A stretch of DNA of 40,173 nucleotides from a virus. Below, piece after piece: positions 32,262 through 38,026 of this stretch. A program made the position numbers and the translations under genes. Under the pieces are notes generated by a model. It made no database searches. It saw only the letters and a list, made by a program, of their open reading frames with translations, and was not told the origin of the DNA. Every line of letters begins with the position of its first letter. Position 1 is the first letter of the stretch. The stretch is from positions 1-40,173 of IMG/VR virus record IMGVR_UViG_3300031576_000150; one strand, written 5' to 3'.

Positions 32262-32575
32262 TGCTGGCCGACGCGCTGAGGATGTTCTTCTACCTGTTCC
32301 TGGCCCTGGTGGCCGTCATGGCCAGCATCTACGCCTGGGCGGCCCCGGCGGGTCATTTCCAGTGCGGCCCGCGGGCGGGCATGCTGGCGGCCCTGGCGGC
32401 GCAACATGGGGAACTGCGCACCGCGCGCGGAACGATGCCGAACGGGCTGCTGCTCGAAGTATTGGCCGGCCCGGCGGGCAACTGGACGGTGATCCTCGCC
32501 CAGCCGGACGGGTCGGTCTGCATCGGCGCCTTCGGCGACGCCTGGACCGAGGAGCGCTGCGGACGGCCGGCGTGA
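32261..32575 (+). CDS. Membrane-anchored or exported small protein
   Basis: The 104-residue product has one N-terminal hydrophobic segment (residues 8-28; MFFYLFLALVAVMASIYAWA) followed by a small domain GMLAALAAQHGELRTARGTM, LLLEVLAGPAGNWTVILAQP, DGSVCIGAFGDAW. This exported family is common as chromosomal hypothetical genes in alphaproteobacteria. Position in the lysis block suggests a host-envelope function. The GTGA overlap couples it to the next gene. Confidence 0.65.
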   Translation: MLADALRMFFYLFLALVAVMASIYAWAAPAGHFQCGPRAGMLAALAAQHGELRTARGTMPNGLLLEVLAGPAGNWTVILAQPDGSVCIGAFGDAWTEERCGRPA

Positions 32576-33946: not shown

Positions 33947-34413
33947 TGTCCCGGCGGCCAATGGCGGACGGCTCCGTGGTCAACATGACAACGTCGCCCC
34001 TGGAGCTCTGGCACGGCGGCGCTAGGTTGTTCGCGCGCCATGAACTGGCCTGCCGCGCGACCGGCGAGGGAAAACTGGCCGGCGGTTTCGGCGGCCTGCT
34101 GATCGAGCTGCGGGTGGCGTGGGACCGGCCAATGAAGGTGCTGTCCTGTTGTCGGTCCAAGGCCCACAACGACGCGCCAATAAGCATGGGTGGGGTTGGC
34201 GGGCATCTACGCTCGCTGCACGTCTATGACCAGCCGCCGCACGGGTTGGACGGCTGCGCCGCCATCGACATCGCCGTCGCCGATACGCACGCCGCCGGCT
34301 TGCTGGCTTTCCTCGCCTGGCGGATGGGCTGGAGCGTTGGCGTCCCGCGGGGATTCCTTCACCTCGACCGCCGCGACCTCGCCGGCTTGAAGCAGGCGTT
34401 GTTCGGCTACTAG
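33946..34413 (+). CDS. Peptidase M15-like endolysin
   Basis: The 155-residue product has CCRSKAHNDAPISMGGVGGH (about residues 68-87), then LRSLHVYDQPPHG (His92), GCAAIDIAVA (Asp108) and GFLHLDRRDL (His139, Asp141), the order of the M15_3 D-Ala-D-Ala carboxypeptidase family whose His/Asp/His ligands bind zinc. It has no signal peptide, so release would need a holin. It is the best endolysin candidate; the alternative is a cell-wall trimming enzyme. It ends facing the thermonuclease gene. Confidence 0.82.
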   Translation: MSRRPMADGSVVNMTTSPLELWHGGARLFARHELACRATGEGKLAGGFGGLLIELRVAWDRPMKVLSCCRSKAHNDAPISMGGVGGHLRSLHVYDQPPHGLDGCAAIDIAVADTHAAGLLAFLAWRMGWSVGVPRGFLHLDRRDLAGLKQALFGY

Positions 34414-34450
34414 TCGTCCGCGATCGCGGCGCCGCCCGGCCGGCGGCCGT

Positions 34451-34894
34451 TCAGCACCAGCCCCCCCTTTTCCCGCCGGCATAGGGCCGGGCCAGGCCCT
34501 CGGCGATGAGCACCTGGGCGAGCTCGCGTCCGTCGGCGCCGCGCACCCGCGCCAGCACGCGGCCGCCGAACTTGTCGGGCGCGATCTCGGTCAGCGTCAC
34601 CGCCCGCCCCGCCAGCTCCTTGAGCCGCGCCTGCGCGCGCGCCGCCGCCTGGCGCTCGGCCGGGCATTTCCCCTTGAGTTCCGGCGCGTCCAGGCCCCGC
34701 AGCCGCACCGCCGCCGCCGCCGCGATCCCCGGCCAGATGCGGGCGCGCACGCCGAGCGTGTCGCCGTCCACCGCCGCCAGCACCTCGGCGGCGATCGGCC
34801 CGGCGATGGTCTCGGCCGCCGCCGCCGTCGGCGCCAACAGGGCGAGAACAAAGGCGGCACGGATTCCCCATGTTTTCCCCATGACGGGCGTCAT
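34451..34894 (-). CDS. Secreted thermonuclease (SNase family)
   Basis: The 147-residue product has a signal peptide (WGIRAAFVLALLAPTAAAAE) and the SNase fold: AAVDGDTLGVRARIWPG (Asp45), VRLRGLDAPELKGKCPAERQ (Arg64, Asp69, Glu72) and DKFGGRVLARVRGADG (Arg112). All catalytic positions are present, so it is probably an active extracytoplasmic nuclease. It sits on the far side of attP from integrase and would end up at the other edge of the prophage, a typical moron position. Its first codons overlap the left integrase arm repeat. An ATG at 34882 is an alternative start. Confidence 0.88.
   Translation of the reverse strand: MTPVMGKTWGIRAAFVLALLAPTAAAAETIAGPIAAEVLAAVDGDTLGVRARIWPGIAAAAAVRLRGLDAPELKGKCPAERQAAARAQARLKELAGRAVTLTEIAPDKFGGRVLARVRGADGRELAQVLIAEGLARPYAGGKRGGWC
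34863..34891. repeat. attP arm repeat, left
   Basis: It reads ATTCCCCATG, then TTTTCCCCATG, then ACGGGCGT. The right arm repeat (35063-35092) has the same three parts with one extra base between the two TTCCCCATG units. The two arm repeats flank the tRNA-like core, so they are candidate integrase arm-binding sites. This copy overlaps the first codons of the thermonuclease gene. Confidence 0.75.
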
Positions 34895-34978
34895 GGAACG
34901 GCGTTTCGCGGCATCAGGATGCCGGTCGGGCGCGGCCAGCGCCGGGCGCGGAATCGTAAGCGGATCATCGGCATAAGC

Positions 34979-35023
34979 GGTGCTGCCGGTCAGGATTGAA
35001 CTGACGGCCTCCCCCTTACCAAG
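34979..35023 (-). other. attP core: 3' half of tRNA-Thr(GGT)
   Basis: Read on the minus strand, the stretch gives an anticodon loop TTGGTAA with the GGGGG 3' stem, the variable loop, a perfect T arm (GTCAG TTCAATC CTGAC), the acceptor strand CGGCAGC and ACC. The 5' half of the tRNA is absent, so it is not a tRNA gene. It lies 72 bp downstream of the integrase stop. The 3' half of a tRNA gene next to integrase is the usual attP core, so the predicted attB is the 3' half of a host tRNA-Thr(GGT). Confidence 0.85.
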
Positions 35024-35062
35024 GACGGCCCGGCGGACGGCGGAACAAGGACTTGGGCCGGT

Positions 35063-35092
35063 ATTCCCCATGCGCTTCCCCATGGCGGGCGT
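35063..35092. repeat. attP arm repeat, right
   Basis: It reads ATTCCCCATG, then CGCTTCCCCATG, then GCGGGCGT. It matches the left arm repeat (34863-34891) apart from a few bases and a one-base indel, and it lies 40 bp from the tRNA-like core. It ends 3 bp before the integrase stop codon region at 35095. Confidence 0.75.
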
Positions 35093-35094
35093 GG

Positions 35095-36069
35095 TCAGCC
35101 GCCGCCGGCCAGGCGGCCGAGCTTGCGGTTGGCGGCGCGCTGGGCCGGAAGGTCGGTGGACTGGTAGCGGATCGAGCTCTTGGGGTCGCGGTGGCCGAGC
35201 TTGTCCATGATCGCGCGCAGGCCGACGCCCTCGGCGGCGAGCCAGGCGCCGATGGAATGGCGCGCCATGTGCGGGGTGAAGCGGAGGCCGAGCCGGGCCG
35301 CCAGCGGGCGCAGCCAGCGGTAGACGCCGGAGCGCGCGCGCCAGGGGAAGAGGCGGCCGGCGCCGCGCCGCAGGTCGGGATCGGCGGCCAGCAGCGCCGC
35401 CACGTCGTCGTGCAGCGGCGCCTCGGTCCAGCGCCCGGACTTGCCGATGTAGAGCCGCGCGGTGCGCCGCGCGAGGTCGATCTGCCCGGCCTCGAGGCGC
35501 AGCGTGTCGCCGAGCCGCGTGCCCTGGCCGAAGAGCCAGGCCAGCAGCAGCCGGCGCTTGCCGCCGGCGGCGGCGATGAGGGCCGCCGCCTGGGGGCGCG
35601 ACAGCGCCTGGGTGGCGGGGGCGGGCTCGCGGAAGAGGCGCACCCTGAGCCAGGGGCAATGGCCGTTGTCGGCGGCGTAGTGCAGGACCGCCGCGGCCGG
35701 GCGCAGCACCTCGCGGTTCCGCGTCGCCGGGCGGACGTGGCCGGCCAAGGCGTTGGCGGCGGCGACGAGGTCGGCCTGGCGCAGGCCGGCCACCGGGCGC
35801 GGGCCCAGCTCCTCGACCAGGCGGGCGAGGCGCTTGACCTCGGCCGCCGCCGGGCGGCGCCAGTCGAGATAGAGCGCCGCCGCCTCGGCGAAGCTCAGCG
35901 GCGCAGACGGATGACGTTGGCCGAGGCGGGCGAGGAAGGCGGCAGCAACCCGCTCAGCACCCGCCTGGTCGCGCGCGCGCGTCGAGATCTCGTAGAGGCG
36001 GCCGGCGTGCCAGCCGCGGTAAAGCCAATAGCGGTTGCCCTTGCGGCGGCCGGGGGCGATGAGGCGCAT
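35095..36069 (-). CDS. int: Tyrosine-family integrase
   Basis: The 324-residue product has all six catalytic residues in order: Arg185 (GQGTRLGD), Lys210 (YIGKSGRW), His267 and Arg270 (FTPHMARHS), His293 (LGHRDP) and Tyr302 (SSIRYQST). A core-binding SAM-like domain lies at about 55-150. It mediates insertion at the tRNA-like attP core 72 bp downstream. The ATG at 36069 lies inside the upstream excisionase-like reading frame, so the two are translationally coupled. Confidence 0.96.
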   Translation of the reverse strand: MRLIAPGRRKGNRYWLYRGWHAGRLYEISTRARDQAGAERVAAAFLARLGQRHPSAPLSFAEAAALYLDWRRPAAAEVKRLARLVEELGPRPVAGLRQADLVAAANALAGHVRPATRNREVLRPAAAVLHYAADNGHCPWLRVRLFREPAPATQALSRPQAAALIAAAGGKRRLLLAWLFGQGTRLGDTLRLEAGQIDLARRTARLYIGKSGRWTEAPLHDDVAALLAADPDLRRGAGRLFPWRARSGVYRWLRPLAARLGLRFTPHMARHSIGAWLAAEGVGLRAIMDKLGHRDPKSSIRYQSTDLPAQRAANRKLGRLAGGG

Positions 36070-36233
36070 TGGACGGCCTCCAGGACGGCGCGCACCTGCG
36101 CCGGGGTGAAGAGGAGCTTACCGCGCCCGGGGGCGCGGGAGAAGCCGAGGCCGGCGACGACGCGGCGCAGCGCGCGCTCGCCCAGCGGCGCCAGCCGCCG
36201 GAGCTCGGCGAAGCCGATGAGCGGTGCCGTCAT
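35895..36233 (-). CDS. Excisionase-like HTH protein overlapping integrase
   Basis: The first 55 residues form an AlpA/Xis-like winged helix: LIGFAELRRLAPLGERALRR, VVAGLGFSRAPGRGKLLFTP, AQVRAVLEAVQ. The next 57 codons run in the -1 frame relative to integrase over 175 bp and look like non-native sequence, so either the protein simply ends in an out-of-frame tail or a frameshift fuses the DNA-binding domain to integrase. The start overlaps the ParB-like gene's stop. By position it is the candidate directionality factor. Confidence 0.7.
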   Translation of the reverse strand: MTAPLIGFAELRRLAPLGERALRRVVAGLGFSRAPGRGKLLFTPAQVRAVLEAVQCASSPPAAARATAIGFTAAGTPAASTRSRRARATRRVLSGLLPPSSPASANVIRLRR

Positions 36234-38026
36234 TCGCCCGCGCCGGGAGCGGCGGGCGCGCGGGTTTTGCCTTGCTTCTTGGCCGGGCGGCCGCGCTTCC
36301 CGGCGTGGTCTTCGCGCTTGCCGGGCCGGTCGCCTTGCGCTTCCCGGCCCGCCGGCCCGGCGTGGTTTTTGCGCTTCCCGATCCGGCCAACCGCCGGGCT
36401 TGGCCCGCTGTCCGACGGATCGGGAAGCGACGACGAGCGCTTGAAGGCGAGCATGGCGGGGACGTAATCCTTCCGCCGGCGGGCGGCGGCGAGGAGGGCG
36501 TCGGCGCCGCCGGCGCCGGCGCCCTTGAGCTCGACGCCGAGCTCCTTGGCCATGGCGGCGCGCTCGCCGGGGCCGCAAAGGGCGAGGAAGGTCTTGTCCA
36601 GCGCCGCCGGATGCACGGCGGCGCCGATGGCGGCGCCGAGGCCGGCGATCTCGTCCCCGGCGTAACCATTCAACAGGCTGGCGACGGCGGCGGCGAGGCG
36701 GGCGGCGGCGCCGCCGCCGCCGGCGGCGACATGGGACCGGATGGCGGCCAAGTGGACCGCGCGCACCGCGCGCTCGAGGGCGAAGGGGTCGAACCTCTCG
36801 CGGACCTTGCCCGCCGGCGCGGCGGCGCGGGCGGGGGTTTTTTCCGCCGCGCGGCGCTGGCGCTCGCGGTCGATGACGCCCGCGTGCACGGCGACCCGCA
36901 AGCTGTCGCGGGCGACGAGGATCAGCGCCCCGACGCCGGCGCGGCTTTGGCCGCGCCCGGCCATATTGACGGGGGTGCCGCTGGCGCCCGTGCGGCCTTG
37001 GCCGCGCCCGGCCATATTGGCGGCCTTGGGCTGGCGCGCATAGGGCCAGGGCGGATCGCGGCCCTCGGCCAGCTCCCACTCGTCGCGGCCGAGCTTGACG
37101 TCCACCCACGGCCACTGGGCCGCCAGCTCCCGGCGCCGGGCGGCCACCGCCCGGTGCTGCAGGCGGCGGAAGAGGACGACGTCGTCGGCGCAGGGGCGGC
37201 CCTGGTCGTCCTCGACCGACGCGCCGGCATAGGCCGTAGGCGGAAAGAGGGCGTTGGCCAGCGGCAGCATTTTCTCGCGCACGGCGGCGCGCAGCTGGGC
37301 GGCGTTCTGGATGACGGCGCCGCCGTCCTCGTCCTCCGGGTCCTTGGGGAAGAGCAGCGGCAGCAGGTCCTTCTGCCGCGCGCCCGGCGCCCGGCAGAGC
37401 TCGCGCGCCTGCTCGGGCGTGATGGCGCCGGCCTCCAGCGCCGCCAGCCCCTCCGGCGCCAGGCGCTGGAGCAGGTCGAGGCGCAGCTGCACGTGGCGTT
37501 GCGAGCGCCCGGCCAGGCGGGCGATGTGTTCGGTCGCGGCGCCGGCGGCGCGCAGGCGGCGGTAGGCGCGGGCCTCCTCGAGCGGCCTCAGGTCGTGGCG
37601 GGCGGCGTTCTCGGCCAAGCCGGTGGCGACGACGGAATCGTCGTCGAGCGCGCGCACGGCGACGGGGAGGGCAAAATCGGCCGGCAGGCGGCCGTCGGCC
37701 ACCGCCAGCCGCGCCGCCCGCCAGCGGCGCTCGCCGGCGGCGATCTCGAATTCGTCGCCGCCGCCCGGGCGCGGGCGGACGATCAGGTTCTGCAGCACGC
37801 CCTGGGCGCAGATCGAGTCGGCGAGCTCGGCCAAGGCGGCCGGGTCGAAGGCCCGGCGCGGATTGAGCGGCGAGGGATGCAGGCGGCCGAGGGGGACCAG
37901 CCGCGGCGCCGGCTGGGCGGGCGCCGGCGAACGGCGTTCGCCTTCTTCGCCGGACAGGATGGCGGGCGCCGGCGAACGGCGTTCGCCTTCTGCGCCGGAC
38001 GCGATGGTCGCCTGGGCGGCGGTCAT
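36230..38026 (-). CDS. Large ParB-like nuclease-domain protein
   Basis: The 598-residue product carries the ParB N-terminal domain (about 40-160; PLNPRRAFDPAALAELADSI, GVLQNLIVRPRPG, AAGERRWRAARLA with the GERR box at 98-101, TGLAENAARHDLRPLEEARA) and an HTH (HIARLAGRSQRHVQLRLDLL). The long C-terminal half is unlike partition ParB and resembles plasmid/phage ParB-type proteins. No ParA is present, so segregation is doubtful. The first 40 residues contain two 15-residue repeats and the last 80 are encoded by palindromic copy E and its half-arms. Located in the left early operon with ATGA overlaps on both sides. Confidence 0.85.
   Translation of the reverse strand: MTAAQATIASGAEGERRSPAPAILSGEEGERRSPAPAQPAPRLVPLGRLHPSPLNPRRAFDPAALAELADSICAQGVLQNLIVRPRPGGGDEFEIAAGERRWRAARLAVADGRLPADFALPVAVRALDDDSVVATGLAENAARHDLRPLEEARAYRRLRAAGAATEHIARLAGRSQRHVQLRLDLLQRLAPEGLAALEAGAITPEQARELCRAPGARQKDLLPLLFPKDPEDEDGGAVIQNAAQLRAAVREKMLPLANALFPPTAYAGASVEDDQGRPCADDVVLFRRLQHRAVAARRRELAAQWPWVDVKLGRDEWELAEGRDPPWPYARQPKAANMAGRGQGRTGASGTPVNMAGRGQSRAGVGALILVARDSLRVAVHAGVIDRERQRRAAEKTPARAAAPAGKVRERFDPFALERAVRAVHLAAIRSHVAAGGGGAAARLAAAVASLLNGYAGDEIAGLGAAIGAAVHPAALDKTFLALCGPGERAAMAKELGVELKGAGAGGADALLAAARRRKDYVPAMLAFKRSSSLPDPSDSGPSPAVGRIGKRKNHAGPAGREAQGDRPGKREDHAGKRGRPAKKQGKTRAPAAPGAGE
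36372..36429 (-). repeat. Covarying palindromic element, copy E, inside the ParB-like gene
   Basis: The 14-bp stem CGCTTCCCGATCCG (36372-36385) pairs with 36416-36429. On the minus strand the bulge TCGGACAGCGG, the inner stem and the 5-nt loop follow the same plan, with one mismatch in the inner stem. It is translated near the ParB C-terminus in the same frame as copy B. Three extra half-arms (GCGCTTCCCGGC-like, at 36293, 36314 and 36337) follow in the gene's 3' end. Confidence 0.87.
36941..37019 (-). repeat. 28-bp direct repeat, 51-bp spacing, in the ParB-like gene
   Basis: A 28-bp unit at 36941-36968 (containing CGCGCCCGGCCATATTG) recurs at 36992-37019 with one mismatch. The protein repeats NMAGRGQ, spaced by 17 residues. 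The 51-bp period equals that of the repeat at 38050-38151. Confidence 0.8.
37916..38005 (-). repeat. Two 45-bp tandem repeats with internal palindrome
   Basis: Units at 37916-37960 and 37961-38005 differ by a few bases. Each contains GGCGAACGGCGTTCGCC, a near-perfect palindrome. They encode two copies of GEEGERRSPAPA-like sequence at the N-terminus of the ParB-like protein. The palindrome also occurs once inside the DUF6950 gene (about 26196-26212). Confidence 0.85.

Follow-up and report, generated by a model that had tools for sequence, protein, structure and literature searches.

The window, a virus contig of 40,173 bp, almost certainly carries at positions 34863 to 35092 an attP, that of a temperate phage whose tail genes are of the lambda type; here the integrase would bind four arm sites, exchange strands in an anticodon loop and rebuild a host tRNA-Thr. 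To the left of the site are genes for a terminase, a head protease, a tape measure protein, tail fibre J, a DUF1353 protein and an M15/endolysin-type protein, and to the right is the integrase gene (int), followed by parB. Since phage genes lie on both sides, with head, tail and lysis functions to the left and int and parB to the right, we read the site as the attP of a phage genome. The features of an attP that we found are an adjacent tyrosine integrase gene, repeated arm sites on two sides, flanking phage genes and the same geometry in integrated relatives, the last of which is the strongest support.

A tRNA-Thr core between paired arm sites

The core (34979-35024, minus strand) consists of the 3' portion of a gene for tRNA-Thr(GGT), the 5' half being absent. 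It begins with the final 2 bp of the anticodon stem on the 5' side, continues over the anticodon loop, the T arm and the 3' strand of the acceptor stem, and ends in the CC of CCA. Read on the reverse strand it is CCTTGGTAAGGGGGAGGCCGTCAGTTCAATCCTGACCGGCAGCACC; positions 34980-35024 give CCTTGGTAAGGGGGAGGCCGTCAGTTCAATCCTGACCGGCAGCAC, and an extra C is at 34979. Genuine tRNA-Thr(GGT) genes in nine genomes, all of one bacterial order, share 42 of 45 core bases, and the match extends no more than 2 bp beyond the anticodon loop on its 5' side. Two of the three mismatches form a compensatory pair in the T stem (GACAG/CTGTC vs GTCAG/CTGAC), so the fragment, judged by its sequence, probably derives from a working tRNA. 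ARAGORN detected no complete tRNA in the whole window, and Rfam gave only sub-threshold matches at the site. The exact core had no matches in IMG/VR, and neither it nor an integrated form of this phage was present in the genomes searched, which were sampled from the class of a Bradyrhizobium genome (i.e. Alphaproteobacteria).

On each side of the core, CATGGGGAA is present twice, giving four copies in one orientation with spacings of 11 and 12 bp. The distal (P) arm (34863-34891, minus strand) has sites at 34864-34872 and 34875-34883, 11 bp apart, and is composed of ATTCCCCATG, TT, TTCCCCATG and ACGGGCGT in that order. The int-proximal (P') arm (35063-35092, minus strand) has sites at 35064-35072 and 35076-35084, 12 bp apart, and is composed of ATTCCCCATG, CGC, TTCCCCATG and GCGGGCGT. 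All arm copies of TTCCCCATG (starting at 34864, 34875, 35064 and 35076) point in the same direction, and they represent four of its five occurrences in the window, where 0.19 would be expected. The fifth is a single copy at 32405-32413 (minus strand), distant from the attP. Exactly one 9-mer in the real window forms two tandem pairs (spacing of 10-15 bp, pairs 100-300 bp apart), compared with none in 300 dinucleotide shuffles of the whole window. Searches of the arm sequences against annotated phages (blastn) gave only chance-level matches, and neither TTCCCCATG nor CATGGGGAA was found as an integrase site in the literature searched.

These results bear out much of the initial annotation, which had described the 3' half of tRNA-Thr(GGT) without its 5' half, flanked by matching arms. 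The spacer of 88 bp that it gave between core and left arm is correct; the right spacer is 38 bp, not 40 bp. Its proposal that each arm overlaps a gene holds for the left arm, which covers the nuclease start, but not for the right arm, which ends at 35092, 2 bp before the int stop codon (35095-35097).

Two further sequence elements lie between the core and the distal arm. A direct repeat, CGGGCGCGG, was read directly from the sequence at 34927-34935 and 34943-34951 (no strand assigned), and its copies are candidate excisionase sites. A perfect palindrome, GGCATCAGGATGCC, is found at 34910-34923; together with the repeat, it may represent excisionase or accessory sites.

The int gene (35095-36069, minus strand) encodes a tyrosine integrase of 324 amino acids (PF00589, E-value of 4e-18; PHROG 1 integrase, E-value of 2e-30 over residues 8-322). 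Its N-terminal domain weakly matches the arm-binding domain PF09003, with an E-value of 0.027 that is below the family cut-off. The AlphaFold model has a mean pLDDT of 56 and values below 50 at the N-terminus, where a low-confidence strand-strand-helix is predicted; because of this poor pLDDT, the model was left out of fold searches. In searches of IMG/VR, phage and plasmid records, no relatives exceeded ~30% identity over most of the protein. Immediately behind the core is a gene for a staphylococcal-nuclease-like protein (34451-34894, minus strand; PF00565, E-value of 5e-6; PHROG 452 endonuclease), the translation of which has a signal-peptide-like N-terminus. It starts at the ATG at 34882-34880 or at an in-frame ATG just upstream (34894-34892). 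An open frame at 34451-35659 (minus strand) runs from within int through the attP into the nuclease gene, with both arm pairs in the same frame, and is probably a by-product of the high GC content. Elsewhere in the window, a subtilase-like phage gene (31327-32052, plus strand) encodes an N-terminal prodomain and matches only positions 1-108 of 288 in the peptidase model; it is apparently truncated.

Integrated relatives at tRNA-Glu(CTC)

Full-length relatives of the integrase were identified in four genomes (G424, G427, G435 and G450) from the order of genome G305, the same order as the closest tRNA-Thr genes. Their identity to the window integrase is 36-39% in local and 32-36% in full alignments. 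In G450 and G435, int is followed by the 3' half of a tRNA-Glu(CTC) gene that starts at the anticodon loop, and in G427 such a half lies ~0.9 kb from int. Complete tRNA-Glu(CTC) genes are present elsewhere in the genomes that carry the halves. Only one end of the G450 and G435 elements is readable on their contigs.

Tandem G-rich pairs are located on the phage side of several of the tRNA-Glu copies, four cases being unmatched in 200 shuffles, and no tandem pairs were found on the upstream side of complete tRNA-Glu genes. Counted from the CCA end, the two distal sites begin at +95/+106 in G435 as in the window, at +108/+119 in G427 and at +107/+118 in G424. About one helical turn separates the two placements. 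On the int side, the window has its pair near -60/-48 and G435 at -58/-47 (the window offsets were derived from its coordinates), and in G435 and G427 G-rich sites are found ~46-59 bp from the core on that side. The parts, their geometry and the same geometry at tRNA-Glu are direct observations. The tRNA-Glu(CTC) elements resemble the window in their integrases (32-39% identity), their anticodon-loop core and G-rich pairs at nearly equal offsets, and differ from it in the tRNA used and in their arm words.

Flanking phage genes and relatives with the same geometry at another tRNA agree with the initial annotation in its main claim, an attP with a tRNA-Thr core and integrase arms on both sides. 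The same annotation had named integrated relatives at a different site as evidence against its reading. Relatives do occupy another site, tRNA-Glu(CTC), and the different tRNA is one point to be set against an attP, along with the weak N-terminal match of the integrase and the lack of a match to the exact core or of an integrated copy among the genomes searched. Since the integrases of these relatives share no more than 32-39% identity with that of the window, and the elements insert at the same sub-site, an anticodon loop, we do not consider that the reading fails on this point.

G427 (loci L106 and L110) and G424 (L101, L105 and L109) contain several elements at tRNA-Glu(CTC), with differing arm words. 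One 12.7-kb stretch (G427:C36:70322-83034) has GGGGAAGC pairs at both ends.

Proposed integration and alternative readings

The mechanism we propose follows the lambda paradigm; the binding of proteins, the precise point of crossover, the identity of the host and a restored tRNA function are inferences. The N-terminal domain of Int would bind the four CATGGGGAA arm sites while its core-binding and catalytic domains hold the core. Strands would be exchanged within or beside the anticodon loop of 7 bases, so that the phage core becomes continuous with the 5' half of a host tRNA-Thr(GGT) gene. At one junction, the phage-supplied 3' half would complete the tRNA-Thr, with the distal arm pair and then the nuclease gene behind it; at the other, the int-proximal arm pair and int would come to lie beside the displaced 3' half of the host tRNA. 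It had been suggested that integration may affect both int and the nuclease gene. We find no support for this: with the crossover in the core, both coding regions and both arm pairs should be left intact, and only their neighbours change. For an uncultured phage, this amounts to a complete and readable integration site, with a named tRNA target and both junctions predicted.

A tRNA half between arm pairs could also be an attL or attR junction in an integrated prophage, or the boundary of two stacked elements. Related genomes do have elements stacked at one tRNA gene, and such boundaries likewise show arm pairs flanking a tRNA half. The window site, however, has phage genes on both sides, and one and the same arm word to the left and right of the core; at L110 in G427, the one such boundary that could be read on two sides, the words differ. 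We therefore consider a junction or boundary very unlikely. That the CATGGGGAA repeats are operators or duplicated nuclease start regions instead of integrase sites might be supposed from the overlap of the distal pair with the nuclease start codons and from the int-near copy being in the same reading frame. This is extremely unlikely, as the paired layout around tRNA cores recurs in unrelated phages and in integrated relatives that do not have this nuclease start.

An additional role would be compatible with an attP. In the lysogen, ~85 bp would separate the rebuilt tRNA from the nuclease gene downstream, with int, the tRNA part and the nuclease gene all on the minus strand. As a scan of 34300-36300 detected neither an intrinsic terminator nor a sigma-70-like promoter, the nuclease might be transcribed from the promoter of the rebuilt tRNA-Thr. 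In the free phage, Int bound to the distal arm, which covers a nuclease start codon, might repress it. We regard this as rather doubtful, because the scan used E. coli-type consensus sequences in very GC-rich DNA and would miss promoters and terminators of other types.

Arm-site pairs in other phages and known systems

The attP architecture of the window is ordinary, and its layout of two plus two direct arm sites was already known from Cluster J mycobacteriophages. In these phages, which include Omega and BAKA, an attP has been described in which the anticodon loop is the point where the tRNA core is cut and the direct arm sites are paired, and integration was tested experimentally (PMC3706429). 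As in the window, the Cluster J core is downstream of int (by ~100 bp in Cluster J), consists of a tRNA part (44 bp in Cluster J) that starts on the left within the anticodon loop, and is accompanied by pairs of ~10-bp direct arm sites, P1/P2 and P3/P4. Unlike the window, Cluster J has the arm consensus TGCATAC.., a tRNA-Leu and an actinobacterial host (PMC3706429). Cluster K1 phages (CrimD, Anaya and Adephagia) also have two arm-site pairs around the core, but P3/P4 are inverted relative to P1/P2 and the core is in a tmRNA (PMC3203893). The attP of ICEMlSymR7A, like the window, has several arm-type sites and belongs to an alphaproteobacterial element; in contrast to the window, it has five sites with the consensus TGKTGGTATC, and the element is conjugative and not a phage (PMC11963761). 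All of its arm-type sites are needed for efficient integration (PMC11963761).

The two-pair layout around a tRNA core is common. Searching IMG/VR for tandem TTCCCCATG identified two unrelated phage groups (L028/L029 and L032) in which arm pairs flank a tRNA part next to int. Most of the 24 matches to the tandem pattern had no integrase match in their record, and several were inside predicted reading frames. That L053 and L058 have a word in common with the window says little about kinship, as they were found by searching for that very word. A control search with the reversed pattern gave 18 matches, at least two of which (L071 and L078) were themselves arm pairs of other integrases, so this pattern is not a clean control. 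Both are att sites next to int (L071:4280-4470 and L078:11050-11390), where tandem arm pairs of the GTACCCC type flank tRNA parts. The tandem arm pattern had a single match in 240 genomes, L044, which was rejected as a coding repeat.

Three relatives of L029 differ in arm word at all four sites: L053 (4155-4440) has CATGGGGAA, L054 (4143-4420) has GTGGGTACT and L055 (4143-4430) has GTGGGGGGTAA, while the tRNA-Leu core is unchanged. Their integrases are 87-90% identical, with the divergence concentrated in the first ~35 residues. Identity is 15-20 of 32 residues (47-63%) in columns 5-36 and 82-98% in the remainder (42-45/51 in columns 37-87, 69-76/82 in columns 88-170, 76-85/88 in columns 171-260 and 123-128/131 in the last block). 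L058 and L059 likewise have different arm words, CATGGGGAACC and GTGACAC.

It is quite possible, if somewhat short of probable, that the four arm sites and the N-terminal ~35 residues of Int vary together as a single recognition unit, with the core, linker and catalytic domain constant, and that this blocks cross-excision at a shared tRNA gene. The latter is our inference; the elements stacked at tRNA-Glu(CTC) in G427 and G424 do have different words. The idea of such covariation is not new, since the arm consensus of Cluster K1 phages varies between close relatives along with N-terminal Int residues (PMC3203893). Those changes affect one or two bases (PMC3203893), compared with most of the word in L053-L055. 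The relatives thus form a small natural series in which the arm sites and the Int N-terminus vary and the core is constant. With it, one can ask which bases are read by which residues, and if diversity among the arms stops cross-talk between elements stacked at one tRNA gene. In a further integrase, at L057 (403-2161), 48 of 51 residues in the 37-87 block are as in L053, whereas the catalytic part is not shared, the rest is 46% identical and the tRNA core is different. From these alignments, the integrase genes, L057 included, look mosaic.
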